Under the pieces are notes generated by a model. It had not been told where the DNA came from. It worked only from the letters and a program-made list of their open reading frames with translations, and made no database searches. Shown here piece by piece: positions 4,958 through 27,627 of a DNA stretch of 56,935 nucleotides. Origin of the DNA: an uncultured Gammaproteobacteria bacterium (GTDB lineage Bacteria > Pseudomonadota > Gammaproteobacteria > Pseudomonadales > UBA5518). Location of the stretch: the NCBI GenBank assembly GCA_903928015.1, contig CAIYPF010000156.1, positions 1 through 56,935 of the forward strand, read 5' to 3'. The first letter of the stretch is position 1. Each line of letters begins with the position of its first letter. The translations under genes and the position numbers were made by a program.

Positions 4958-5148
4958 AGGAGTCTCCGACTCTGGGTATCACGCAGTGGCGGAGGAATAG
5001 CACGGGGTAATTGGCTTGTCACGCAACACACGGTCAAGCGCGGCCGGACAGACGAGCTGCAACGAAACTGAAAGGCCCGAGTCACTCGCTCTTAATCCGC
5101 GGCGTGGATGCTTTCCGGACAGCTTCTTTCCACCCCGAGGACATCACC

Positions 5149-6621
5149 ATGATCCCGCGTCTTTCATTGCTTGCCGCCGCACTGGCGGCCGCGCTGCCCG
5201 CGTTTGCTGCCACAGGCCCGAGCAGCTCAGCGACTCCGTATCTGACACCGGTAGAACCCGGCGTTGAGTTCACGTCCATTCTCACCACCGGCGATACGGT
5301 TGCGCTCCGGCAGGTCTGGAGCCGTGCTCCCGCACAGACCTACCGGATGGCAGGTATCCCGGACGGACTGGGTGCCTGGGACAACGACGATGGCACCTTC
5401 ACGGTCGTGATGAACCACGAACTTGGCAGTAGCGTGGGCGTGGCCCGCGCGCACGGCGGCAAAGGCGCGTTCGTTTCCCGTTGGCAGATCAGGAAGTCCG
5501 ACCTGAAAGTCCTGAACGGCCAGGATCTGATCGAGCGGGTCAAACTCTGGGACGGCAGCCAGTTCGTCGAAACGCCCGGCGCCGTCTTCAACCGCTTCTG
5601 CTCGGCCGATCTGGCTCCCTCAAAGGCTCTTTTCAACCGCAAGAGTGGCAAGGGCTATCACGGTGGCCGGATCTTCTTCTCCGGCGAAGAGACGAGCGGG
5701 GGCCGGCCCTTCGCCCACATCGCATCCGGTCGCGAAGCAGGCACCAGCTACCAGATTCCCGGCCTCGGCAATGCGGCCTGGGAAAATCTCGTCGCCAGCC
5801 CCTTCGAGCAGGACACCACTGTTCTCATGGGCATGGATGACGGCTCGCTGAATGCGAGCAAGCTCTTCGCCTACGTCGGCACAAAACAGAAGAAGGGATC
5901 CGCGCTCGAGCAGGCCGGTCTTGCAGGCGGCACCCGCTACGAGATGTCCATCGACGGATTCACCACCGAGTCACCGGCCATCAACGCGATTCCGAACGGC
6001 TACAGCGGACGCTTCTCGATGGTCACGAGCGGCGGCACGGGCTTGAACCGGGTCGAGGATGGTGCCTGGGACACGAAGAACCCCAACCGGTTCTACTTCG
6101 TCACCACGGCCAACATCACTGGAAACAGCCGGCTCTGGCGCGCCACATTCGATGACATCTCCAACCCCGCCGCCGGCGGCAACGTGGAAGTTCTGGTTGA
6201 TGGCGCCGTCACCGGCCAGAAGATGATGGACAACATCACGGTCGATGGCTCCGGCGCTGTCTACATGCAGGAAGATGTCGGCAACAACGCGCACATCGGC
6301 AAGGTCTGGAAATACGGCAGGGACGGCTCGCTCACGCTGATTGCACAGCACGATGCCGACCGCTTCATTGCCGGCGCCAGCGCCGACATCGACGGAACGG
6401 ATGCGAAACAGTCCGACGAGGAGTCGTCGGGCATCGTCGAGATCACGCAGTTGCTCACGGACGACGATAAGGTCGGAACTGCCGGCGCTGCATGGGACGT
6501 CCGCAACTACCGTTACTTCCTGATGGACGTGCAGGCCCACTACACGAGCGTCAACGGGACACCGCTGGACGCCGAGCTCGTCGAGGGCGGCCAACTGCTC
6601 ATGATGCAGGTTCCCCGCTGA
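5149..6621 (+). CDS. Secreted PhoX-like (DUF839) protein
   Basis: 490 residues. It starts with a Sec-type signal peptide (MIPRLSLLAAALAAALPAFA, cleavage near residue 21). The mature part resembles the PhoX/DUF839 beta-propeller group: GLGAWDNDDGTFTVVMNHEL, then YHGGRIFFSGEE, then NPNRFYFVTTA. PhoX enzymes are calcium/iron-dependent alkaline phosphatases, but many DUF839 proteins have no proven activity, so the reaction here is open. The ATG at 5149 is chosen because GAGGA precedes it and the signal peptide begins there. Classical PhoX is Tat-exported; this protein has no twin arginine. It is a single-gene unit closed by a strong terminator. Confidence 0.75.
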   Translation: MIPRLSLLAAALAAALPAFAATGPSSSATPYLTPVEPGVEFTSILTTGDTVALRQVWSRAPAQTYRMAGIPDGLGAWDNDDGTFTVVMNHELGSSVGVARAHGGKGAFVSRWQIRKSDLKVLNGQDLIERVKLWDGSQFVETPGAVFNRFCSADLAPSKALFNRKSGKGYHGGRIFFSGEETSGGRPFAHIASGREAGTSYQIPGLGNAAWENLVASPFEQDTTVLMGMDDGSLNASKLFAYVGTKQKKGSALEQAGLAGGTRYEMSIDGFTTESPAINAIPNGYSGRFSMVTSGGTGLNRVEDGAWDTKNPNRFYFVTTANITGNSRLWRATFDDISNPAAGGNVEVLVDGAVTGQKMMDNITVDGSGAVYMQEDVGNNAHIGKVWKYGRDGSLTLIAQHDADRFIAGASADIDGTDAKQSDEESSGIVEITQLLTDDDKVGTAGAAWDVRNYRYFLMDVQAHYTSVNGTPLDAELVEGGQLLMMQVPR

Positions 6622-10605: not shown

Positions 10606-11784
10606 TCACTTCAGCTTCGCGTATCTCTGCTCCAACCGCTCCGGCCCCGCCGTGATGGCGAAGTAATCGTATTTGCCGGGCTTCTGCGTCGACATCAGAT
10701 AGAGCATGTGCATCGTGTGCTTGTCGGGGAGCATGCGGCGGTAGTCTTCCTCGGCGAACAAGGTGTGGAACCGTGGCGAGGTGAGCCGCGGCGCGCCGCG
10801 CCCGCGTGTCACCAGCGGAACCTCGCAGAGCGCGAGCGGATCGATCAACGGGAAGCTCCCCCAGTCCGAGGGCGAGGACACATCCACCCAGATGAGCCTA
10901 TCGCTCGCGCCGATCCGCGCCAGGTCCTCGCGATACGCCACCGCCTGCGGGAACAGCCCGAACAGCGGGATGCAGTTCCCCAGCGTGATCAGCGCGAGCG
11001 CGGGGCCTTGCGGCGGCGCGATCTCTTCATGGGCAAGTGCTCGCCCCAGCGCATGTGTGGCGAGGATGCTGCCCACGCTGAAGCCCACCACCAGCACTTC
11101 GTCGATGTCCGGGTCTTGCTGGAGTTCGCGCAGGCGCGCTGCGTTGGCCTCGATCATGCGATCGATCTCGGGCACGCCCCACACCGCGCAGCGGCTGACG
11201 AATGCGTAGATGCGCGCGAGCAGGCTGGTGTCGAGTCGGCGCTCGAGACGCAGCACTGTCGCCACGCCGGCAACGGACACCCCGGCGGCGGCGAACCGCG
11301 CTGGCCAGACACCGAAAAACGCATCGACACCGTGCCCCGCCAGAAGTGCGAGCAACGCGGTGACAGCAAAGCCTGCCACGAAAAACAGCAAGGGATAAAA
11401 GAGCGCGAAGATCCGCTGCGGCAGCACGCGCCATACCTTCAGCACCTCGCCGGGGGCGTGTCGCACCATGAGCCAGTAGCCGACGGTCATCTCGCGCAGT
11501 ACACCCGCGCTGCTGCGCGGCCAGTAACGGCGTACCACATCGTCCCAACCGGCCACTTCCACCACGGTGCTGCAGGGCTCGCCCGAGGCACTCTGCGTCT
11601 GCACATCCCAGCACTGGCGCCCCTCGGCGTCGCGCCGGCGAGGCCCCACATCGATCTGCATGCCGTTCACGGCGGACTGCTGCGCGGCATGGCGGCGGTA
11701 GAGGCCGTGGTACCAGGCTGCACCCTTCGGATCGAAGCCACCAAAGAACAGCACATGACGTCGTCGCACGGGCGGGGCGCTCAT
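10606..11784 (-). CDS. Membrane-anchored alpha/beta-hydrolase-like protein
   Basis: 392 residues. It begins with a hydrolase-like strand (HVLFFGGFDPKG), has two predicted membrane helices at about 126-150 and 160-180, and then GFSVGS (234-239), a GxSxG nucleophile elbow with S236. Likely later members of a catalytic triad cannot be assigned safely. I know similar uncharacterised proteins but no proven reaction; lipase/esterase activity is inference from the elbow. Its ATG overlaps the stop of the upstream glycosyltransferase by 4 bp (11781-11784), so the two are translationally coupled. It converges with the methyltransferase gene. Confidence 0.7.
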   Translation of the reverse strand: MSAPPVRRRHVLFFGGFDPKGAAWYHGLYRRHAAQQSAVNGMQIDVGPRRRDAEGRQCWDVQTQSASGEPCSTVVEVAGWDDVVRRYWPRSSAGVLREMTVGYWLMVRHAPGEVLKVWRVLPQRIFALFYPLLFFVAGFAVTALLALLAGHGVDAFFGVWPARFAAAGVSVAGVATVLRLERRLDTSLLARIYAFVSRCAVWGVPEIDRMIEANAARLRELQQDPDIDEVLVVGFSVGSILATHALGRALAHEEIAPPQGPALALITLGNCIPLFGLFPQAVAYREDLARIGASDRLIWVDVSSPSDWGSFPLIDPLALCEVPLVTRGRGAPRLTSPRFHTLFAEEDYRRMLPDKHTMHMLYLMSTQKPGKYDYFAITAGPERLEQRYAKLK

Positions 11785-13034
11785 GCGAGTGACTCCAGCG
11801 CGAGGCGTACGCGCTCAAGGGGATGCTGGCCGGCAAGCTCTCTGGCCACCCGCGCGCAGGCAGCAGGCACGGATGTGTCCGCGAGCAACTGCGCCAGCGC
11901 GTCCTCGAGCGGCTGACGGCTGCCGTCCTCGCGCTGATGGATGGCATGCGCCACGCCCAGAGCTTCAAGGCGCGAGGCATTGTCGAACTGATCGTAGGCC
12001 TGCGGAACCACAAGCTGCGGCAGCCGTGCGCGCAGCGCCTGCGCCAGCGTGCCCACGCCGCCGTGATGGACCAGCGCGCGTGCTCGCGGCAGCAGCAAGG
12101 AGAACGGCGCGTAGGGCATGTGCAGCACGCCGGGCGGCAGCGCAGCGGGCACTTGCGAGAGGTCCTGCGTGAGCAGGATTGCGCGCAGCCCCAGCGCATT
12201 GCTGGCCACGACCGCCTCGGCGAAGAACGGCGTCGCATCGTGCATCGCGGTTCCTGCCGTGAAGACCACCGGCGGCGCGCCCGCATCGAGGAAGCGCGCG
12301 AGCGCAGGGTCCAGCCCTGCAGCGGCGTCATCGTCGTAGAGCGGAAAACCGGCGTGCAGATGCGGTCGCGGCCACTCCGGTGTGGCGGCGGCAAAGCATT
12401 CCGGGAAAAGCGCGATCGAGAGAAGCGGCGAGTGGATCCATTCGAGAAAAATGCTGCGCTCGAGTGCCGGCAGGCCGCGCGCGCTGCGGGCGCTCTCCAC
12501 ATCGGGCAGGGCAAGCGGCTGCATCTTGTTGCGGTCGAGTGCGAGCACGGCCTCCCGCGCGTCGGCGGCGGAAACATCCGTGCTTATGTGACGCCCGGCG
12601 AGCCAGAGCGGCGGGGCGAAACGCGGCAGCATCTGCGGTGCCGTCCACGCGCTCACCACACGCAGCCCGCGGGTTTCCCGGGCAATGCGCGGCGCGGGCA
12701 TCAGGAAAGGGCTGTACAGGGCCACGGTGTCGGCTTCGTCCGCCGCTGCCTCGAGCCGCGCGAGTGTGGCAGGAATGGCAGGCCGTGCCAGGTAGCGCCA
12801 CATCACGCCGAAGCCGTTCAGCGGGTGCCACACAGAGGGGTGCGCGAAGGTGGCGTTGAAGTGCGCAAGCTCGCCCACGGGCGTGAAGTCGATGCCGGCG
12901 CGTGTGGCCAGCGGTGCGAATACAGGGTTGCTGATCAGCTCTGCGCTGTGACCGTGCTCGCGCAAGTGGCGGCCGATGGCAAGAAAGGGGTGGATGTCAC
13001 CCGCGGTGCCGAGGCTGGCGAGCAGCACCTTCAT
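11781..13034 (-). CDS. GT1-family glycosyltransferase
   Basis: 417 residues with the two-domain GT-B plan of family 1 glycosyltransferases. The N-terminal acceptor domain starts with GTAGDIHPFLAIG. The C-terminal donor domain carries HHGGVGT (323-329) and PQAYDQFDNA, the nucleotide-sugar contact region. Close relatives include sterol, rhamnolipid-type and macrolide glycosyltransferases that use UDP- or TDP-sugars on hydrophobic acceptors. The acceptor here is unknown. It is the first gene of a two-gene unit with the membrane hydrolase-like gene. A lipid acceptor would fit that partner but is inference. A REP cluster lies just upstream. Confidence 0.85.
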   Translation of the reverse strand: MKVLLASLGTAGDIHPFLAIGRHLREHGHSAELISNPVFAPLATRAGIDFTPVGELAHFNATFAHPSVWHPLNGFGVMWRYLARPAIPATLARLEAAADEADTVALYSPFLMPAPRIARETRGLRVVSAWTAPQMLPRFAPPLWLAGRHISTDVSAADAREAVLALDRNKMQPLALPDVESARSARGLPALERSIFLEWIHSPLLSIALFPECFAAATPEWPRPHLHAGFPLYDDDAAAGLDPALARFLDAGAPPVVFTAGTAMHDATPFFAEAVVASNALGLRAILLTQDLSQVPAALPPGVLHMPYAPFSLLLPRARALVHHGGVGTLAQALRARLPQLVVPQAYDQFDNASRLEALGVAHAIHQREDGSRQPLEDALAQLLADTSVPAACARVARELAGQHPLERVRLALESLA

Positions 13035-13051
13035 GGCACGCTACCGGATTC

Positions 13052-13188
13052 GTCGCGGGCATGGCCCGCTCCTACCACCACCCACACGGTTGCCGCCCCC
13101 CGCAGGAGCGGGCCATGCCCGCGACCACGCGCCCCGCACCAGCGGGCCATGCGCGCCATTCCCCGTAGGAGCGGGCCATGCCCGCGAC
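13052..13188. repeat. REP cluster I: three copies plus a partial
   Basis: Copies are at 13052-13075 (minus), 13102-13125 (plus) and 13165-13188 (plus), with a partial core at 13141-13157. Each full copy reads GTAGGAGCG or GCAGGAGCG followed by a CAT loop and GCCCGCGAC, with stem arms GCGGGC/GCCCGC. The first pair is in inverted orientation, as in BIME units. The cluster fills the gap between the glycosyltransferase and ilvE. Open frames that read through it are artefacts of the repeat. Confidence 0.88.
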
Positions 13189-13243
13189 CGCGTGCCCCGC
13201 ACGCGATCATCGCGGCGGGACGCGGCTACCACAGGGTGTGCGC

Positions 13244-14173
13244 TCAGCCCGCGACGGGGGTGAGCCAGTCGGCGTGCTGGGCGCTGCGGCCGCGCACGAG
13301 GTCGAAGTAAGCCGTCTGGAGCATCTCGGTGATCGGGCCGCGGCGGCCGCTGCCGATCTTCCGGCCGTCGAGTTCGCGGATCGGGACCACTTCAGCAGCC
13401 GTGCCGGTGAAGAAGGCCTCGTCTGCGATATACACCTCATCTCGCGTGATGCGGCGCTCTGCCACCTCGAGGCCCGCCTCGCGGGCCAGCGTCATGATGG
13501 TGTCGCGCGTGATGCCCTCGAGGCAGGAAGTGAGTTCCGGCGTGTAGAGCGTGCCGTGACGGATGAGGAAGAAGTTCTCGCCGCTGCCTTCGGCCACGTA
13601 GCCTTCGGGGTCGAGGAGAAGCGCCTCTTCGCAGCCGCTGTCGATCGCCTCGCGCAGCGCCAGCATGGAGTTGGTGTAAGCGCCCACGGCCTTGGCCTTG
13701 CACATGGTCACGTTCACGTGGTGGCGCGTGTACGAGGAGCAGCGCACCTTGATGCCGCGCTCGCGCGCTTCCGGATCCATGTACGAGGGCCACTCCCAGG
13801 CGGCCACGGCCACGTGCGTCTGCAGGCCCTCGGCGCGCAGGCCCATGGCCTCGGAGCCCAGGAATGCGAGCGGGCGCAGATAGGCTTCTTTCAGGTTGTT
13901 GTCGCGCACTACGGCGCAGTGGGCGGCGTTGATGGCCTCGCGCTCGTAGGGCATCTGCATGCGCAGGATGTGGGCCGAACGGAAGAGGCGGTCGGTGTGG
14001 GCCTGCAGGCGGAATATGCAGGTTCCTTGCGAGTCCGTGTGATAAGCGCGCACGCCCTCGAATACGCCGAGGCCGTAGTGGAGGGTGTGCGTCAGCACGT
14101 GGGTTTTGGCATCACGCCAGGGCACCATTTGCCCGTCGAACCATATCTGCCCGTCACGCTCCGCGAAATTCAT
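13244..14173 (-). CDS. ilvE: Branched-chain amino acid aminotransferase
   Basis: 309 residues, the same length as E. coli IlvE. This fold-type IV PLP enzyme carries out the last step of Val, Leu and Ile synthesis. The PLP lysine is K161 in AKAVGAY. HYGLGVFEGVRAY near residue 32 and EGSGENFF later on are family signatures. The ATG at 14173 is chosen over an upstream one because AGGGGA precedes it and the homologous N-terminus begins there. From memory, in Pseudomonas ilvE lies next to glnE; here a chemoreceptor gene intervenes. Confidence 0.95.
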   Translation of the reverse strand: MNFAERDGQIWFDGQMVPWRDAKTHVLTHTLHYGLGVFEGVRAYHTDSQGTCIFRLQAHTDRLFRSAHILRMQMPYEREAINAAHCAVVRDNNLKEAYLRPLAFLGSEAMGLRAEGLQTHVAVAAWEWPSYMDPEARERGIKVRCSSYTRHHVNVTMCKAKAVGAYTNSMLALREAIDSGCEEALLLDPEGYVAEGSGENFFLIRHGTLYTPELTSCLEGITRDTIMTLAREAGLEVAERRITRDEVYIADEAFFTGTAAEVVPIRELDGRKIGSGRRGPITEMLQTAYFDLVRGRSAQHADWLTPVAG

Positions 14174-14289
14174 CTGACCGTTCCCCTGATTGAAGCCGCC
14201 ATTGCACCACAAAAGGCCTGCTGCGCGGTACGTGGGGCCGTTCTTGCCCGGGAGTATTTACGGCGGGACGGGGAGCCATCGGTGCTGCT

Positions 14290-14313
14290 GTCGCGGGCAT
14301 GGCCCGCTCCTGC
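14290..14313 (-). repeat. REP-type repeat, single copy
   Basis: One 24-bp copy in the minus orientation, with arms GCGGGC/GCCCGC, a CAT loop and the GCAGGA head variant. It lies 4 bp downstream of the chemoreceptor stop codon, in the gap before ilvE. Confidence 0.8.
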
Positions 14314-14317
14314 GGGC

Positions 14318-15949
14318 TCAGAACTCTTCGGTGTCGAAATCGTGCTCGGGCGCGCGGGCAGCAACTCTGGAGGGCGGGCCCCGTCGTGGCATCAACGCGC
14401 CGGAAGTTTTGTCGTTGCCGGTGCGGAAGAACGAGACCTTGTCCGTCATCGCCGCGGCCTGGTCCTCGAGGGACTTTGCCGCCGATGCCGCCTCCTCCAC
14501 CAGCGCTGCATTCTGCTGCGTGATCTGGTCCATCTGGTTGATGGCGAGATTGACCTGCCGGATCCCTTCGCTCTGCTCGCGGCTCGCCGAGGCGATCTCC
14601 GAGACCACCAGCGTCACCCGCTTGATCGCCTCGACGATGCGGCCCAGAACCGCGCCTGACTCGTTCACCAGCCTGGAACCGGCGGTGACCTTCTCGACCG
14701 AGTCGTTGATGAGGGTCTTGATCTCCTTGGCGGCCTGCGCAGAACGCTGGGCGAGGTTGCGTACCTCGGTGGCCACGACGGCAAAACCGCGTCCCTGTTC
14801 GCCCGCGCGCGCGGCCTCGACGGCAGCGTTCAGCGCGAGCAGGTTGGTCTGGAAAGCAATCTCGTCGATCACACCGATGATCTGCGAGATCTTCGTGCTG
14901 GAATCGTTGATCTCGCCCATGGCCGTGACCGCGCCGGAGACCACCGAGCCGCCCTTCTCGGCCTGCTGTCGGGCGTCGTTCGCGAGCTGGTTGCAGCGGG
15001 CCGCGTTCTCGGCGTTCTGCTGCACTGTGGATGTCATCTCGTCCATGCTGGAAGCGGTTTCCTCCAGGCTGGCCGCCTGCTCTTCGGTGCGCTGCGAGAG
15101 ATCGGTGTTGCCGGCGGCGATCTCGGCCGCGCCGGTGTTGATAGAGGCGCTGCGATCGCGCACCTCACCCACGATGTCACGCAGGCGCGTGCTCATGGTT
15201 GCCAGCGAATCCAGCAACTGACCGATTTCGTCGTGCCGATCGACCACGACCTCCTGCGTGAGGTCACCCTCGGCGATGGCCGCGCAGTGCGCCGTGGCGC
15301 GAGCGAGCGGCACCGTGATGCCACGCACAAGGCGCCATGCGAACAGGCCGGCGCCACCGAGCACCAGCACGATGCTCAGGATGAACAGGTTGCGCGATGT
15401 CTCGTAGCGGCCGCGCGCCTCCTCGAAGACCTGCGCCGCCACTTCGGTCTGGATGTTCACCAGGGCGCTGAAACCGTCGGAGACCGGATCGATGGCCGGG
15501 TAAAGCTGGTTGATGGTGAAGCTGTCGATCGCCGCCTGGTCCTTGGCTTGGAGGATGCGTTCGAGCTCGTCGATGCGCTGGTCCGCCGTGGCCATCAAGG
15601 GCTTCAATTGCGCGACGGTCTGGACCTCCTGCGGCACGAGAAAGGTGGCGAGGTAGGCGCGCCAGAGCCGGTCGATGTCCTTGCGTGCGGTTGCGACCCG
15701 CGTTTGAGCCTCTTCCCAGGGCACGTTGCCGTTGCGCGTCTTGTGCGAGAGATCGACGATGCTGACGGCGTAGGCATCGGCGATGGCCTTGAGGTCCTTC
15801 AGCGGGACCACACGATCGAGATACACGGTCTCCAGACCTTTCACCGCGGCCGACATGTTTCGCAAGGCCTGCACGCCGATGAAGACCAGCGCGATTCCGA
15901 GGAATGCCACGAGCACGATCAGTCGCTGGCGAATGGTGATGTCTTTCAT
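14318..15949 (-). CDS. Methyl-accepting chemotaxis protein
   Basis: 543 residues. TM1 is at about 9-28 and TM2 at about 188-206. Between them is a ~160-residue periplasmic four-helix-bundle (TarH/4HB-type) sensor. A HAMP domain starts near 208, and the signalling domain carries the invariant hairpin tip IDEIAFQTNLLALNAAVEAA. The C-terminus ends DTEEF, which resembles but lacks the Trp of the NWETF-type CheR/CheB tether, so tethering is doubtful. The ligand is unknown. No che genes are nearby; the gene is a single unit between ilvE and glnE. Confidence 0.93.
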   Translation of the reverse strand: MKDITIRQRLIVLVAFLGIALVFIGVQALRNMSAAVKGLETVYLDRVVPLKDLKAIADAYAVSIVDLSHKTRNGNVPWEEAQTRVATARKDIDRLWRAYLATFLVPQEVQTVAQLKPLMATADQRIDELERILQAKDQAAIDSFTINQLYPAIDPVSDGFSALVNIQTEVAAQVFEEARGRYETSRNLFILSIVLVLGGAGLFAWRLVRGITVPLARATAHCAAIAEGDLTQEVVVDRHDEIGQLLDSLATMSTRLRDIVGEVRDRSASINTGAAEIAAGNTDLSQRTEEQAASLEETASSMDEMTSTVQQNAENAARCNQLANDARQQAEKGGSVVSGAVTAMGEINDSSTKISQIIGVIDEIAFQTNLLALNAAVEAARAGEQGRGFAVVATEVRNLAQRSAQAAKEIKTLINDSVEKVTAGSRLVNESGAVLGRIVEAIKRVTLVVSEIASASREQSEGIRQVNLAINQMDQITQQNAALVEEAASAAKSLEDQAAAMTDKVSFFRTGNDKTSGALMPRRGPPSRVAARAPEHDFDTEEF

Positions 15950-16007
15950 AAACGTGTCCCGTATCTGGTGCCTTGCGGCGTCTTCGGCGATTACCTTCGG
16001 AAGTCTA

Positions 16008-18919
16008 TCACCCGCCCAGCAGGCGGCCCCATAGCGCCATTACAGCGGCCCGCTGTTCGCGGAAACGCCCTGCGTCCACCACATCGTCCTCACGCAGAAG
16101 CGCGAGCCTGTGGGTCTCCGTCCGGTAGGCCTTGTATGCAGAGGTGAGCATCTGCGCGTCTGATTGCGGCAGCAGGCCGCAGGCCTCCAGCGCCTCGAGG
16201 ATGCGGATGTTGTCGGTGTACACCGAGATTTCCGGGTGCGCGCCGCTCCAGGTCAGCGCGGCGTACTGCACCAGGAACTCGATATCAACGATCCCGCCGG
16301 GGCTCTGCTTCAGGTGGAAGCGCGGGCTGTCGGGGCCGGAGGTGTCGGCTTTCAGGAGGTGAGCGCGCATACGGTTGCGCATCTCGAGTACATCGGCACG
16401 GAGTTTCTCCGGCTCCCGTGCCCGGGCCAGCACGGCGCGGCGCAGCGTCTCGAAGCGCGCCCCCAGCCGCGGGCAACCCGCCACCGGCCGCGCACGCACC
16501 AGCGCCTGATGCTCCCACGTCCATGCTTCTCGGGCCTGGTAGTCCTCGAAGGCCCGGAAGCTCGATACCAGAAGCCCCTTCGCGCCCGAGGGACGTAGCC
16601 GCATGTCCACCTCGTAGAGCGGGCCAAGCACCGTGAAGGTGGAGAGCACGTGGATGATCCGTTGGCCAAGGCGCGTGAAGAACAGGCTGTTTTCGATGGG
16701 GCGCGGTCCGTCGGTGGAGAGGCCCGTATCGGCGTCGTGCAGGAAGACGAGATCGAGGTCCGAGCCATGCCCGAGTTCGATCCCGCCCAGCTTGCCGTAG
16801 GCCACGATCACGAAGTCCCCGTCGCAGGGCTGGCCCTCGCTCTTCATGGGCGTGCCGTGACGCGATGCAAGGTCTTGCCAGCAGATGCGCAGCACGTGTC
16901 CCAGGATCGCCTCGGCGAGGAAGCTCAGGTAATCGCTCACCTTCATGAGCGGCAGCGCGCCCGTCACCTCCGATGCCGCACAACGCAAACCGTGCGCGAG
17001 CTTGAAGTAGCGCAGAGCCTCCATCTGTGCCTCGAGATCGTCCTGCGGCACGCGCAGCATGTGCTCGCGCAATTCGGCGGCGAGGCGTCCACGATCGGGC
17101 AGCACCTGCAGGCTGCGCGGATCGATCAGCTCATCGAGCAGCACCGGATGGTTGGCGAGCTCCTGCGCAATCCAGGGGCTGGCGGTGCACAACGTCACCA
17201 GCTGTGCGAGAGCTGCGGGGTTTTCGGTCAGCAGTACCAGATAGGCGCTGCGGCGCAACACGGCCTCGACCAGCGGCATGGCGCGCAGCAGCAGCAGCGA
17301 AGGTTCCAGGCTGCGCGCGGCGGCAGCAAGAAAAAGCGGCATGAAACGGTCGAGGCGTTCGCGCCCGGCTGCCTGCAGCGAGCGCACGCGGCTGCCTTCG
17401 TGGAGCTCCGCGAGACGGCGCCGCGTGCCGGCCGGATCCTCGAAACCTGCCGCAGCGAGCGCGGCTTCGAGGTCTTCTGCCGTCTGCTCCATACGCCAGA
17501 GCGCCTGCCAGGGGCCCGAGGAATCTGCGGCAGTGGCCTCTCCCGCGGGCTCGCTCACCACTGCGGCGAACTGCGCCGAGACGCGCGCCCGGTGCCCGGC
17601 AAGAGTTGCGTGGAATCTCTCCCAGTCGGGGAAACCCATGGCAAAGGCCAGGCGCTCGCGTTCCTCATCCTGTTGGGGCAGAGCCTGGGTCTGGGCGTCG
17701 TCGCGGGCCTGAAGGGCGTGCTCGGTGGCGCGCAGGAAAAGATAGGCCTCGCGCAGTTCCGCCACGGCCTCGAGCGGCAACTGGCCCAGCTCGCCCAGCG
17801 TCTGCAGCACGACGAGGAGGCTTCGCTCCTGCAGCCGAGGCTCGCGCCCGCCACGGATCAGCTGGAAACTCTGCACGATGAACTCGATCTCGCGGATGCC
17901 GCCGGCGTCGAGTTTCACGTCGCCGGCCTGGCCGCGGCGCGCAACCTCGCGGCTGATCATGGCTTTCATCTGGCGCAGCGATTCGATGGCGCTGAAATCG
18001 ATGTAGCGGCGGTACACGAAGGGCCGCAGCGTGGCGAGCAACACCTCGCCGGCAGCAAGGTCGCCGGCCACCACGCGCGCCTTGATCATGGCGTAGCGCT
18101 CCCATTCCCGGCCCTGGTCCTGGTAATAGAGCTCCATCGCGTCGAAGTTCAGGGCGAGCGCGCCCGAATCGCCGTAAGGCCGCAGCCGCATGTCGACACG
18201 GAAGACGAAGCCGTCGCGCGTCACGGCATCCAGTGACTTGATGATCCTCTGACCCACGCGCACGAAGAATTCGCGGTTGCTCAGGCTGCGCAGGCCTGCG
18301 GTCTCGCCCTGCTCGGGGTAGGCGAAGATCAGGTCGATGTCGGAAGACAGGTTCAGCTCGAGCGCGCCGAGCTTGCCCATGCCGATGACCACCATGCGCT
18401 GCGGCGCTCCGCTCGCCTCGCCAATGGGCTCGCCGTGCTTCTGCGCGAGCTCCGCGTGCGCCGTCTCCAGTGCCACCTCGAGAGCCGCTGCGGCGAGCGC
18501 GCTCAGCTCGGCTGTGGTGGTCCGGAAGTCTGCAAGCGCGCAGCGCTCGCGCCAGAGGATGCGCAGCATTTCGCGGCGGCGCTGTGCCCGCAGCGCAGTC
18601 ATCACCGTGGCCTCGGTGATGGTGCCGCCCAGAGCGGCGCGGGCGCGCAGCAGGTACTCGTCATCGCCGTAAGTGCGCCCGAGGTCACCACTCTGCAGGA
18701 GTTCGGGCAACAGATCGGGGTAACGCTCGCACTCGCGGAGCACGAAGCGGCTGTGGCAGAGGAGCCGGGCGAGTTCGCTGCGTCGTGCGGGCTCGCGCCG
18801 GAAGACATCCTCCAGCGCGGAACAACGCTCCTCGCCAAGAGCCGCGGCGAGGCGCGTGGTGTCTTCGGCGAGAGCGGCCGCGAAGGCCGCAGGTACCGTG
18901 TCGGGCGGAAGTTGCAGGT

Positions 18920-18923
<4 letters not shown>
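16008..18923 (-). CDS. glnE: Glutamine synthetase adenylyltransferase/deadenylylase
   Basis: 971 residues with two nucleotidyltransferase domains in tandem, as in E. coli GlnE. The N-terminal deadenylylase domain has GMGKLGALEL followed by SDIDLIF (D195, D197). The C-terminal adenylylase domain has AYGKLGGIELG followed by GSDLDLVF (720-727; D722, D724). The enzyme adds or removes AMP on Tyr397 of glutamine synthetase in response to PII and glutamine. Its target, GlnA (42579-43985), is in this window and has the matching tyrosine. Its ATG overlaps the stop of the upstream GspE-like gene by 4 bp. Confidence 0.96.
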
Positions 18924-20713
<1,790 letters not shown>

Positions 20714-23598: not shown

Positions 23599-24915
23599 TC
23601 AGGAGGCGGGCCCCGTCGCACCCGGACGGAGCATCTGCTCGCGCGCGATCTCCCCATCCAGAAACCGCAACCACTTTGCCGCCGCAGCGCTTTCACCGGG
23701 CTCCTTGCCCGCCAGCACGAAGGCCTCCCGCGCTTCCTGCAGGCGGCCCATCGCATAGAGCGCGCGGCCGAGCATCAGGCGGGCGCCTTCGGGGCGGCGT
23801 TCCGCTGACGCAAGCGCGGCACGCGCGGAGCCCGCTGCACCGGCGGGTTCGTCGTTCAGCAGTTGCAGCGCCGCAAGTCTCAGCCACAACGCGCCGTCGT
23901 TGCCGAGGCGCGCAGCAGCCTCGAGTTTGGGCATGGCAAGTGCGGGCTCCTGCGCACGCTCCCACGCCGTCGCGAGCAGTGCGAGGTGTTCGGGCGTCGT
24001 GCTGACGCGTCCTGCTGGGATTTCCCGGTCGAGCAGCGTGGCCGCCCGCGCCGGCAGGCCGGCCTCCAGATACAGCGCCGCGAGGCCGAGCAGATCCTGC
24101 TCGTCGACCAGCCAGCCGGCGAGCCAGGGCGCCTCCATCGCAGCCACGCGGCGCGCGGTCTGGCCGCGTTCGGCACAGACCGCCGCAAGCTGCAGGAAAT
24201 ACTCCTTGCGCGGCCAGGTGCCCGCGAGCGCCTCCAGCGCACTGGCCGTGCGGGCGAGGTCGCCGGCGGCATAAGCGGAGGCCCGCATCAGCAGATACCA
24301 GCCCTCCTGCGGCGCGAGGTTCCGGCGCTTCGCCTCCGCGACCGCGGCATCGAGTTCGGCAAGCGCATCCCGGTGACGCTCCTGTCCGTGCAGTGCGCGT
24401 GCGAGCAGTGCGTGCGCCTCTGGCAGCGGATCCTCGCTGATGGCGAACCACGCGCGCAGCATCGCCGAGGCCTGCGCCCACTGGCCCAGCGACACCTGCA
24501 GCTGCGCCAGGCTGTAGCGGGTGTTTGACTCCATGATTGCGGGCAGGCCGGGCTGCTTCAGCACCTGCAGGTAGGCGCGCGCGGCGGCATCGCTCTGGCC
24601 GAGTGCGTCCCGGATGAATCCCTCGAAGTAAAAGAGGTTGGCGCGCTCGTAGCTGTTCAGGGCGCGGCCGTCGTCGAAATCCCGTGCAATGGCCTCGAGC
24701 ATGCCAAGGGCTTTCTGGTGCTCGCCGGCGTCGGCTGCACGCTGCACCTCGTCGAAGCGCTGGAAGACCACACGGCGGATGTGCGGCGTGGGACGCAGCG
24801 CGGTGGCGCTTCGCGCGGGCTTTTCCGCGGCAGCCTCGGCAGCGCGCGCACCGGGTACACAGGCCGAAGCCGCACAGAGGGCAGCAGCAAGCAGGGCGTT
24901 AACTGCGCGGCGCAT
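23599..24915 (-). CDS. TPR protein of the TonB operon
   Basis: 438 residues with an N-terminal signal peptide (ALLAAALCAASACVPGARA). A lipobox reading such as SAC or ACV is possible but not canonical. The body is a helical array of TPR-like repeats from ~50 to 420, for example KALGMLEAIARDF and EARLMLGRALYAMGRL-like units. In Vibrio-type TonB2 operons the last gene codes for a similar periplasmic TPR protein. It starts 5 bp after the tonB stop. It is probably periplasmic and helps a TonB-dependent uptake process, which is inference from the neighbourhood. Confidence 0.8.
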   Translation of the reverse strand: MRRAVNALLAAALCAASACVPGARAAEAAAEKPARSATALRPTPHIRRVVFQRFDEVQRAADAGEHQKALGMLEAIARDFDDGRALNSYERANLFYFEGFIRDALGQSDAAARAYLQVLKQPGLPAIMESNTRYSLAQLQVSLGQWAQASAMLRAWFAISEDPLPEAHALLARALHGQERHRDALAELDAAVAEAKRRNLAPQEGWYLLMRASAYAAGDLARTASALEALAGTWPRKEYFLQLAAVCAERGQTARRVAAMEAPWLAGWLVDEQDLLGLAALYLEAGLPARAATLLDREIPAGRVSTTPEHLALLATAWERAQEPALAMPKLEAAARLGNDGALWLRLAALQLLNDEPAGAAGSARAALASAERRPEGARLMLGRALYAMGRLQEAREAFVLAGKEPGESAAAAKWLRFLDGEIAREQMLRPGATGPAS

Positions 24916-24920
24916 CCCGT

Positions 24921-25442
24921 TCAGCGCTCCAGCGAAAAAACGAATTCGTTGCGCACGCCCGCCACATCCACCGGCAGGCCGGCGCGCTCGCGCGGCCGGT
25001 ATTTGAACTGGCGCGCGGCCGCCACTGCAGCGGCCTCGAAAGCACCCGGCGGATTGCAGTCCACCGGGCGCACGTCGCGGGTGGTGCCGGCAGCGGTGAC
25101 GGTGAATTCGACGGTGCAGCGACCGCTGATGCCGGCAGCCTCTGCGGCGGCGGGATATTCGGGCGCGACGGTGACCAGCGGGAGATAGTCGGGCTCTTGC
25201 GCCATGACAGGCGATGCGGCTGTGTTGCGTGAGTTTTCCTGCGCCTGCGCAGGCAGCACAGCACGCTCTCCTGCAGCCGCCGGCGTACGTGCATCACCTC
25301 GCCAAAGCCCGCCGAGCGCAAGCGCCACGAGCAAGGCCACCAGCGCGATGCTCCGCAGGTGGGTGTGGTCGTGCAGGGACGAATGCTCAAAACGAAGGGA
25401 TTTCCGGCGGCGCAGTTGCCGCGAGCCCTGGGGAGCGATCAC
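24921..25442 (-). CDS. tonB: Short TonB-family energy transducer
   Basis: 173 residues. A basic cytoplasmic start is followed by one membrane helix at ~31-46, then a linker of only ~40 residues without the Pro-rich repeats of E. coli TonB, and a C-terminal TonB domain (VTVAPEYPAAAEAAGISG, then QFKYRP). This matches the short TonB2 class. The protein should link an inner-membrane motor to outer-membrane receptors. The GTG start overlaps the stop of the TtpC-like gene by 4 bp. Uniquely for such operons, no exbB or exbD lies between them. Confidence 0.85.
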   Translation of the reverse strand: MIAPQGSRQLRRRKSLRFEHSSLHDHTHLRSIALVALLVALALGGLWRGDARTPAAAGERAVLPAQAQENSRNTAASPVMAQEPDYLPLVTVAPEYPAAAEAAGISGRCTVEFTVTAAGTTRDVRPVDCNPPGAFEAAAVAAARQFKYRPRERAGLPVDVAGVRNEFVFSLER

Positions 25443-26851
25443 CGTGTGCTGCCGCTTGCCGCCAGGCTCACGAGCGCCGCAGCTTCCTGATCCAGTGCGT
25501 GCGCCAGTACACGCGAACGCGCGGCGAGCAGGCCTTGCAGCAGCAGTACGGCTATGCCTGCTGCGAGCCCGACCACTGCGCTTGCCAGCGCCGGCGCCAG
25601 CGTGAACGCGCTGTCTGCCGGAGCTCGCATCACGTACAGCACCGTGCCCAACACGCCGAGTAGCGGCACCGAGGCGGCGGCGAGACGCAAACCGTGAAGG
25701 CCGAGTTCGATCGCGGGCATCTCCCGCAGCAGCGATTGATGCAGCAGATGCTCCAATGCGTTTGCATCAAGCCCGGGATGCGCGGCCGCCTCGGCGCGCA
25801 CGCGCGCTACGGGATGCGAATCCTGCAGGGCGCCACGGCCTCGAAGTGCTGCGTTCCACTGCTCTACAACCGCCAAGCGCCATGTCGCGAAGGCGCCGGC
25901 AAGCAGGCCTAGCAGGAGCGCCAGGGCGCCCGCCATGCCGCCCGCAGCAAGCCGCTCGCCGAAAGTGGCCGCGGATGCGGCGGCCGCCAGTGCTTCGCCA
26001 CCCATGGCTCCGGTGGGGTCGAGCAGGAAGGGCTGCAGTCCGTCTGTGGCAGCGAAGAAATCGGCTGCTGTTTCGCGCGTGTCCGCGTCAGGTTGTCGCG
26101 CGGCTTCGAGGAAGAGAGCGTCTCCTCCGCGATAACGCAGATAACGCCCGGCTGCGTCCACCGCACCGAAACCGCCGACACGCAGCAGCGCGCGCGTTGC
26201 GTCGCTGCCGTCGGGCGAACGCACCGTAGCGTCGAGCCGGCGCACGGCTCCGCCCTCGGCGAGTTCGCGCTGCAATTCGAACCACAGGCCCTCCAGTGCG
26301 GCGGCCGTCGGCAAGCGCTCGCCGCTTGCCGCGGTGCGCAGGAGTTCATCCAGGGCGCTCACGCGTTCGGTGCCCACTTCTGCCGCCACGGCAGAGTCCT
26401 GCAGCAAGGGACGCAAGGCCGTGCCCTGTTCGCCAAGATGACGGAAGACCTGCTCCAGTGCGCCCAGCCGGGCTTGCAGCTCCTCTGTGCGGGCGTCCAC
26501 GGCACGCTGCGTGATCTCGAAACGCTGCTCGAGGATGGTGGCGCGCTGCGTGGCAGCGGCGAGTTCCTCGCGTGCAGTGGCAAGACGTGCCTGCTGGCGA
26601 TCGCGCTCCTCCAGGAACACCTTCCGGCGTGCGGCCTCTGTCTCCGTGCCCGTGGCGCGGGCTTCACGCACTCGGGCGAGAAGCTCCTGAAGGGAGCGCG
26701 CGGGCGGTGCTTGCGCCGCGGCAACGGGTGCTGAGGCCTGTGGAGTTGCAGCGGGCGCCGCTGCGGCAGCCGCAGGCACCTCGCTCTGCGGCCACGCGCG
26801 CGCCGCGAAAAACGCCAATACCAGAAGCGATGAACGCCATGCCGTGCTCAT
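25439..26851 (-). CDS. TtpC-like MotA/TolQ/ExbB-family protein
   Basis: 470 residues. A signal peptide (1-21) leads to a Pro/Ala-rich stretch, then a coiled coil (~75-150) and a periplasmic region. Three membrane helices lie at about 304-326, 390-408 and 418-440. This is the plan of TtpC proteins, which act with ExbB2/ExbD2/TonB2. In the last helices (GVLGTVLYVM and PALASAVVGLAAG) the Glu and Thr I would expect from ExbB-type proteins are replaced by Pro and Ala/Ser, so motor function may be altered. It overlaps both neighbours by 4 bp. Confidence 0.78.
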   Translation of the reverse strand: MSTAWRSSLLVLAFFAARAWPQSEVPAAAAAAPAATPQASAPVAAAQAPPARSLQELLARVREARATGTETEAARRKVFLEERDRQQARLATAREELAAATQRATILEQRFEITQRAVDARTEELQARLGALEQVFRHLGEQGTALRPLLQDSAVAAEVGTERVSALDELLRTAASGERLPTAAALEGLWFELQRELAEGGAVRRLDATVRSPDGSDATRALLRVGGFGAVDAAGRYLRYRGGDALFLEAARQPDADTRETAADFFAATDGLQPFLLDPTGAMGGEALAAAASAATFGERLAAGGMAGALALLLGLLAGAFATWRLAVVEQWNAALRGRGALQDSHPVARVRAEAAAHPGLDANALEHLLHQSLLREMPAIELGLHGLRLAAASVPLLGVLGTVLYVMRAPADSAFTLAPALASAVVGLAAGIAVLLLQGLLAARSRVLAHALDQEAAALVSLAASGSTR

Positions 26852-27627
26852 GGTGCAGCCTCCGCTGCTGCGGGCAGTGGCAAGCGCAGCAACGTTGGCT
26901 GCTGTTCCCCTGCAGCGATGGCAATGCCGTGCGCGATGGCCGCGTCGTAGCTGTCGTCAATCGGCGTCCATGCGTGCACTGCGGGATCCCAGCGGAAATT
27001 GCCGCTGCCATCCGGGGTGCGCGCAAGAAGCACGCTACGGCCAACGTGCAGCACCTGCACGCCGCGCTGTTCATCGGCCACGGTGATGGTGTCTGGATAG
27101 GAGCCCAGATGGCGCGCGTATTCCAGCTCGGTGCGATAGGCGGCCAGCACCTCGCGAAAAGCGATGTCGATCGGGGTGCCGGCGCTCTCGAGGGCGCTGC
27201 GCAGCGCCTCCACGCGCGCCTTGCGCTCGGGCAGGCGGAACGGCAGGTCGAGCACGATGAACTGCTCCAGCGAGTCGACCATTCGCACCAGCAGCGGTGC
27301 GATCTCGCGCTGCAATGCGAGCGCGCCCGTGGTGGCAGTACCCAGATCCGCGATGCGGCGCTGCTGGTCTGCGTACTGGCGATCCAGCCGTGCGTTGTGG
27401 ATGCCGAGGCCCTCGATCTGCCGGGTGATGCCGGTGTACTCATCGAGCAGCTTGCGCGTTTCGGTGGCGAGGCGGTCGACCTCGGCCTGTGAGGCCTGCC
27501 CGGCGGCGGCGGATTGCGCGCCCGTGGCGAGAATGTCTGCCACCGGCTCGGCATGCGGGCCGTCTGCGAGCAGTAGCCCGCACACCGCGAGGCAAGGCAC
27601 AAGGAAGCGGGATATCAGGCGTCGCAT
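26848..27627 (-). CDS. DUF3450 periplasmic coiled-coil protein
   Basis: 259 residues. A signal peptide (MRRLISRFLVPCLAVCGLLLADG region) is followed by a coiled coil at ~45-100 and the conserved DUF3450 core (LVRMVDSLEQFIVLDLPF). The C-terminal half is beta-rich. In TonB2-type operons a DUF3450 gene is commonly first, before TtpC, and its product is thought to be a periplasmic helper. The ATG at 27627 is chosen because the signal peptide starts there. It is the first gene of the four-gene unit 27627-23599, in which the first three genes overlap by 4 bp at each junction. Confidence 0.85.
   Translation of the reverse strand: MRRLISRFLVPCLAVCGLLLADGPHAEPVADILATGAQSAAAGQASQAEVDRLATETRKLLDEYTGITRQIEGLGIHNARLDRQYADQQRRIADLGTATTGALALQREIAPLLVRMVDSLEQFIVLDLPFRLPERKARVEALRSALESAGTPIDIAFREVLAAYRTELEYARHLGSYPDTITVADEQRGVQVLHVGRSVLLARTPDGSGNFRWDPAVHAWTPIDDSYDAAIAHGIAIAAGEQQPTLLRLPLPAAAEAAP

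Follow-up and report, generated by a model that had tools for sequence, protein, structure and literature searches.

What becomes of a TonB2 system when the genes for its ExbB/ExbD motor are gone? The question is raised by a four-gene operon in the window analyzed here, the whole 56,935-nucleotide stretch of contig CAIYPF010000156.1 from an uncultured gammaproteobacterium. On the minus strand of the window, genes for a DUF3450 protein (ttpB), a TtpC-like protein (ttpC), TonB (tonB), and a tetratricopeptide repeat (TPR) protein (ttpD), named here after the TonB2 operon nomenclature of PMC6957404, follow one another without exbB or exbD. The families, order, and orientation of these four genes are those of the Vibrio-type TonB2 operon, ttpB2-ttpC2-exbB2-exbD2-tonB2-ttpD2, all six proteins of which are needed for uptake in V. 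vulnificus (PMC6957404); the window operon differs from it in lacking exbB and exbD. The likeness to Vibrio rests on published names and gene order, the canonical operons compared by sequence here being non-Vibrio ones; relative to these, the TtpC core and the TonB anchor and linker of the window operon are altered.

How TtpB, TtpC, and TtpD contribute mechanically to TonB2 systems is, to our knowledge, an open question. In the operon described here the motor genes were lost, selection on the remaining genes continued, and the motor-facing parts of their products were selectively lost. Our best reading of the sequences is that this is a TonB2 derivative specific to its lineage, in which the periplasmic parts were kept and the contacts with the motor discarded, and which has perhaps become independent of that motor.

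LOSS OF exbB AND exbD WITHIN ONE GENUS

The earlier note on this DNA described four tightly coupled genes with 4-bp overlaps and no gene between those for the TtpC-like protein and TonB, and gene calls and tblastn confirm this. The ttpB/ttpC and ttpC/tonB junctions are 4-bp overlaps, 5 bp separate tonB from the TPR gene, and neither exbB nor exbD was found at the ttpC/tonB junction of the window by tblastn with ExbB and ExbD from two complete operons (G003:C47 and contig C32; G000 is the genome of the window, G001 to G005 are the other genomes of the same genus, and C32, C53, and C92 are G000 contigs). What the search does match at the junction, and only weakly, is the ttpC core itself (E 0.74 for the window, 0.012 to 0.14 for two relatives). 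In the canonical operons examined, exbB and exbD lie between ttpC and tonB, as the note had said of Vibrio-type TonB2 operons.

Among the six genomes of the genus, three have the motorless operon (the window genome, G004, and G005), two have the motor genes (G002 and G003), and G001 has an assembly gap at the slot: a contig end truncates its folA, and the matches to argA (28%) and ilvD (38 to 47%) are all distant. The motorless carriers are three species, apparently uncultivated; G004:C41 and G005:C331, from the two further species, share with the window the four-gene order and the 4-bp ttpC/tonB overlap. In G004 and G005 the four genes are preceded by lgt-thyA-folA and followed by ilvD and argA, whereas in G003:C47 (L051) lgt-thyA-folA precedes six genes, including exbB and exbD, and then ilvD, and in G002:C334 (L053) it precedes a six-gene operon that runs up to tonB, in which the contig ends. 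Since the four-gene and six-gene forms follow the same lgt-thyA-folA block, exbB and exbD appear to have been lost inside the genus. In the window, the four genes adjoin argA-argE, a pair shared with G005 and resembling the argA side of both motorless relatives but without ilvD; a different gene lies on the ttpB side, and folA and thyA of G000 are found instead on contig C53. Searches of G000 and G001 turned up no close ilvD (best matches 38 to 47% identical), though the gene stands beside the operon in G004 and G005.

The TtpC and TPR trees point the same way. The three motorless TtpCs group with those of G002:C334 and G003:C47 (support 100/97), their nearest neighbors in the tree, and the stem of the motorless clade measures 1.8 changes per column, the subsequent branches being shorter (0.05 to 0.39). 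The TtpC of the other TonB2 operon of G000, on C32, falls on a separate branch. A quick tree of the TPR proteins, which excludes G002 with its ttpD beyond the contig end, groups the motorless clade (stem 0.69) with G003:C47 at support 100. Judged by the synteny of G002 to G005, the argA-argE pair shared with G005, and the TtpC tree, the window operon is a descendant of a TonB2 operon. The suggestion of the earlier note that this could be a derived system is thus supported, and we consider it very probable that exbB and exbD disappeared from a second TonB2-type operon in the common ancestor of the three species.

An assembly artefact or a local deletion restricted to the window genome would be an alternative explanation for the missing genes. 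The G000 assembly is in 220 contigs, and relatives do carry exbB-exbD within the corresponding operon, which is half of the situation that the earlier note had named as fatal to its idea (relatives keeping exbB2-exbD2, and a deletion or misassembly here). The other half does not hold: three separate assemblies share the junction, so there is no local assembly error, and TtpC and TonB have changed in a coordinated way. With G004 and G005 at hand an artefact is ruled out, and we regard this explanation as wildly improbable.

THE MOTORLESS FORM IS UNUSUAL AMONG THE LOCI SAMPLED

In every distinct testable locus examined outside the genus (109/109), ttpC is followed by exbB; these loci were selected for their DUF3450 score or their resemblance to the motorless TtpC and are not a random sample. 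They comprise a first set of 28/28, from which L061 (DUF3450 alone) and L069 (cut by a contig end) had been dropped; 25/25 in a second set (L094 to L118, where L104 repeats L086); and 57 of a further 60, of which the remaining three are truncated at contig ends. Nowhere else did a motorless TtpC turn up in the genomes sampled from the order (390) and from the class (369); in the TtpC search the motorless three score 807 to 911 bits, followed by G003 (312.6) and G002 (310.3), both with complete operons, and the best score in the class is 237.7. Two short peptide patterns searched against a collection of genomes from 84,980 species, a method that reaches close relatives, returned the same two relatives only. 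Two loci elsewhere have unusual exbD regions: L199 (G500:C3) is a TonB2 operon with exbB in which exbD was not detected, and in the TonB2 operon at L111 (G298:C1) exbD is spread across several short frames.

Among the titles and starts of abstracts returned by searches of the openly licensed part of PubMed Central, none describes a TtpB-TtpC-TonB-TtpD operon without exbB and exbD. The nearest case is the TonB1 cluster of Teredinibacter turnerae, which is likewise short of a motor gene, having two tonB genes and exbD but no exbB (PMC10734418). It differs in that it keeps exbD1, and ttpB, ttpC, and ttpD are named only for the TonB2 and TonB3 clusters of that species (PMC10734418).

TtpC HAS LOST MUCH OF ITS MEMBRANE CORE SIGNATURE

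The two parts of TtpC differ in how much they have changed. At near-invariant columns, defined as those at least 85% identical among 42 canonical TtpCs, the membrane core of the window protein keeps 21/47 residues (G004, 22/47; G005, 20/47), whereas the periplasmic part keeps 24/29 (23/29 in each relative). The difference is significant for each protein (Fisher p = 0.0016, 0.0078, and 0.0020 for the window, G004, and G005), the three tests not being independent, given shared descent. Five canonical controls, selected by the analyst and each left out of its own consensus, retain 45/47 (G003:C47), 45/47 (G002:C334), 46/47 (G006), 46/47 (G040), and 38/47 (G051:C37) in the core and 28/29, 26/29, 26/29, 15/30, and 23/29, respectively, in the periplasmic part. 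Changed or lost in the motorless proteins are the GMI.TF end of transmembrane helix 2 (TM2), most of the F..IT..G..DPK.MA.GI stretch before TM3, and the TM3 proline; the TtpCs of the C32 operon retain the canonical core. Scores against the MotA_ExbB family (PF01618) are 30.3 bits for the window (26.3 in another scan, just above the cut-off of 22.9) and 37.8 and 27.4 bits for the other two, compared with 109.0 for G003:C47 and 107.6 for G002:C334. An intact ExbB core, which the earlier note had considered as a possible outcome of the alignment, is thus not what the TtpC sequences contain.

That note had also pointed to the absence of a Glu/Thr pair from the last TtpC helices. Both residues are indeed missing from the window protein, but the criterion needs correcting, and the larger change lies in other segments of the core. 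Glu occurs at the position in 6 of 37 aligned ExbB-type proteins and in 0/42 canonical TtpCs, which rules out its loss as the mark of a dead motor core; Thr is present in 42/42 canonical TtpCs and, among the motorless three, lost in the window only. A ttpC-exbB chimera created by deletion was also considered and rejected: alignment of the core with canonical TtpC runs on almost to the end (hhalign probability 99.7%, E 2.3e-26), as against 95.3% and E 2.2e-8 for the motorless core with ExbB. In a sequence search of a PDB copy with one canonical TtpC and one canonical TtpB, the former matched only TolQ, ExbB, and MotA chains and the latter nothing. The TtpC model discussed below was too weak for a structure search.

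TonB KEEPS ITS C-TERMINAL DOMAIN AND HAS AN ALTERED ANCHOR

TonB is divided in a similar way. Its C-terminal domain (CTD) keeps 18 of 21 conserved residues in each motorless species (0.86; canonical leave-one-out range, 0.41 to 1.0), is modeled confidently over residues 91 to 170 (block pLDDT 81 to 94), and in the model matches TonB CTD structures such as 2gsk_B (TMt 0.81); by sequence it matches the TonB2 structure 2k9k (E 4e-11), which is from V. anguillarum by its title. The first 85 residues align with the canonical N terminus at a probability of only 3.8%, over 17 TM residues, compared with 99.9% for the CTD. The motorless TonBs have lost the LF..M..LI residues with which the canonical TM helix ends, and the linker, which the earlier note had rightly singled out as short, has 35 residues with 3 Pro in the window and 39 with 3 to 4 Pro in the relatives, against 73 to 113 residues in 32 canonical TonBs (36 rows, minus two without a detected TM helix and two missed by the motif). 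A D-box-like, beta-prone strand after the TM helix, recognized by a crude residue-count score, is present in 33/34 canonical TonBs (two rows without a TM helix having been dropped) and in 0/3 motorless ones. In E. coli TonB the D-box strand is the place where ExbD binds (PMC10907165), and the TonB TM helix binds the motor (PMC12204202). A weak TM or D-box/motor-box motif could escape detection.

The motorless TonBs have a further feature. RQLRRRK and HxHTH motifs are invariant in 3/3 motorless TonBs, although the window protein is only 56 to 57% identical to those of the relatives, and conservation is higher in this Arg-rich/HxHTH tail than in the linker behind it. The tail was not seen in the canonical TonB N termini compared, each of which had been shortened to 25 residues beforehand. 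From its sequence, the basic HxHTH tail is possibly a new contact or a metal site. Two further candidates were dropped: the idea that ExbD became fused with the TonB anchor has no support (probability 0.2 to 0.3%), and a cysteine pair in the CTD is not a new feature, being present also in canonical TonBs, e.g., those of G044, G027, and G003:C47. The coordinates of all these elements are given in Table 1.

TABLE 1 Features of the motorless operon, in window coordinates
Feature	Coordinates	Strand	Remarks
ttpB-like gene (DUF3450)	26848..27627	-	259 aa; PF11932, E 2.4e-61, 207.5 bits; ATG start at 27627, read from the sequence; signal-like helix at N terminus
ttpC-like gene	25439..26851	-	470 aa; coiled-coil/periplasmic part and degenerate ExbB-type membrane core
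ttpC part for ExbB-like membrane core	25442..25954	-	about residues 300 to 470
ttpC stop codon overlapping the GTG start of tonB	25439..25442	-	4 bp; slot of exbB and exbD in other TonB2 operons
tonB	24921..25442	-	173 aa; short linker; PF03544, E 1.9e-15, 57.5 bits
tonB part for Arg-rich N-terminal tail	25359..25421	-	residues 8 to 28; presumed cytoplasmic; HxHTH beside TM helix
tonB part for CTD	24924..25187	-	about residues 86 to 173
ttpD-like TPR gene	23599..24915	-	438 aa; TPR matches; signal-like N terminus

SELECTION ON THE REMAINING GENES

Altered motor contacts could also be a symptom of slow decay, in which the operon is a remnant that has been losing function since exbB and exbD disappeared and retains residual constraint only. 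The four genes are clearly under purifying selection, weaker than that on their neighbors and on the C32 operon. The ratio of nonsynonymous to synonymous changes (dN/dS, by the Nei-Gojobori method) is 0.15 to 0.29 in 12/12 pairwise comparisons among the three species, compared with 0.04 to 0.11 for five C32-operon genes in the pairs that include the window genome; flanking genes give 0.09 (folA) and 0.06 (ilvD) between G004 and G005 and 0.10 (argA) between the window and G005. This relaxation, the long TtpC stem, and the many near-invariant residues that are gone speak for decay. Other observations speak against it: 12/12 genes are open in three species despite identities of 56 to 69% between the window and its relatives (68 to 69% for the ttpB product, 61 to 62% for that of ttpC, and 63 to 64% for the TPR protein); dN/dS is well under 1 even in the recent pair G004-G005 (0.15 to 0.24); the TtpC core, once changed, is no less conserved than the remainder of the protein (65% versus 61% identity between the window and G004); and the TonB tail is conserved. 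We consider decay improbable.

The recent pair offers an observation of its own. Between G004 and G005, synonymous divergence (dS) is 0.01 to 0.04 in five genes of the C32-type operon (L049 and L050), too little change to judge their selection (dN/dS 0 to 0.16), versus 0.20 to 0.30 in the motorless operon (L047 and L048) and folA, and 0.11 in ilvD. On these sequences, the uneven divergence could reflect a recent exchange of the complete C32-type operon.

A BORROWED MOTOR?

The main rival to motor independence is borrowing. The window TtpB, TtpC, TonB, and TtpD might still transduce force, as a substrate-specific second transducer driven by the ExbB and two ExbDs of C32 (or by TolQR). Such a motor is available. 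The C32 operon of G000 (L009, about 11310 to 18985, minus strand) resembles the window operon in its gene families and reads ttpB-ttpC-exbB-exbD-exbD-tonB-ttpD, with a second ttpB-ttpC after ttpD. An operon of this type occurs in five of the six genomes of the genus, in a matching arrangement in G003, G004, and G005 and cut by contig ends in G001; G002 has it only as a ttpB-ttpC fragment. There is room for several TonBs, given 30 Plug-domain matches in G000; tonB genes lying apart from motor genes are common (PMC12204202); and the CTD is intact. One further tonB gene does lie elsewhere in G000 (L126, contig C92, positions 4961 to 5827, minus strand), with no ExbB or ExbD matches found on that contig; its neighbors resemble, by eye, YqgE and a Holliday-junction resolvase.

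The earlier note had proposed searching the genome for other exbB/exbD pairs, and in an assembly that is 97.2% complete this search found the complete pair in the C32 operon but no relocated exbD that would serve the window operon: G000, G004, and G005 have five ExbD genes each, none near the motorless operon, and the best counterparts of these genes look alike in profile range and score. Nor does a lone ExbB2 stand out among the 11 MotA_ExbB matches of G000, one of which is the window TtpC itself, some of the others being identified by a look at their neighbors only. Borrowing is disfavored by the proteins that would have to engage the motor. The TM motif and D-box-like strand of TonB, known motor contacts (PMC12204202 and PMC10907165), are not recognizable, the linker is halved, and the window TtpC core is strongly altered, whereas the C32 TtpCs keep theirs. 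Since TonB has lost the very elements by which it would touch ExbB and ExbD, we lean toward motor-free working over borrowing, which we consider unlikely, though less so than decay.

A MOTOR-FREE ENVELOPE COMPLEX?

We posit instead that a TonB2 system has turned into a motor-free envelope complex, in which selection preserved TtpB, the periplasmic TtpC part, the TonB CTD, and TtpD but did away with ExbB, ExbD, and the TtpC and TonB elements facing them; TtpB, TtpC, and TtpD would have a function of their own, independent of proton-driven force, and TonB carries the conserved basic HxHTH tail. This reading is tentative (a probability of roughly 0.4). The mechanism that we consider most likely from the sequences, at about even odds, is that the four proteins now form a motor-independent complex of the inner membrane and periplasm. 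They stayed under purifying selection while the ExbB-like TtpC core and the TonB membrane helix, ExbD-binding strand, and linker changed. TtpC could anchor TtpB and TtpD via its retained periplasmic part, and the short TonB could present its intact CTD, which would bind beta-strands, near the inner membrane. The CTD would then serve for docking or sequestering instead of transducing force, and energized uptake would fall to the complete C32 operon. We assume, by analogy with their joint requirement in V. vulnificus (PMC6957404), that TtpB, TtpC, and TtpD interact with one another or with TonB.

Several observations weigh against this scenario or its foundations. (i) The composition of the three motorless rows and of G003:C47 is flagged in the TtpC tree and could help draw them together, and the DUF3450 tree, with a motorless stem of 0.94, leaves the sister of the motorless clade in a knot; the synteny evidence is independent of the composition problem. 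(ii) The motorless TtpC still scores as MotA_ExbB, hydropathy predicts three membrane segments in its C-terminal part, G004 and G005 retain the conserved TM3 Thr, and the AlphaFold model of the protein, built on a 3-row alignment, is poor and of low confidence (pLDDT 55). (iii) The single canonical TonB that failed the strand test scored 2, the same as two of the three motorless ones. (iv) With separate TonBs being common, the absence of exbB and exbD from the operon says little by itself. (v) Compared with the corresponding C32-operon genes, dN/dS in window pairs is 2 to 7 times higher, indicating weaker constraint.

The operon separates the motor-dependent from the motor-independent parts of a TonB2 system and points to the TtpC residues that serve the motor. 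If its products do form a complex that works without one, CTDs of the TonB family would have a use besides force transduction.

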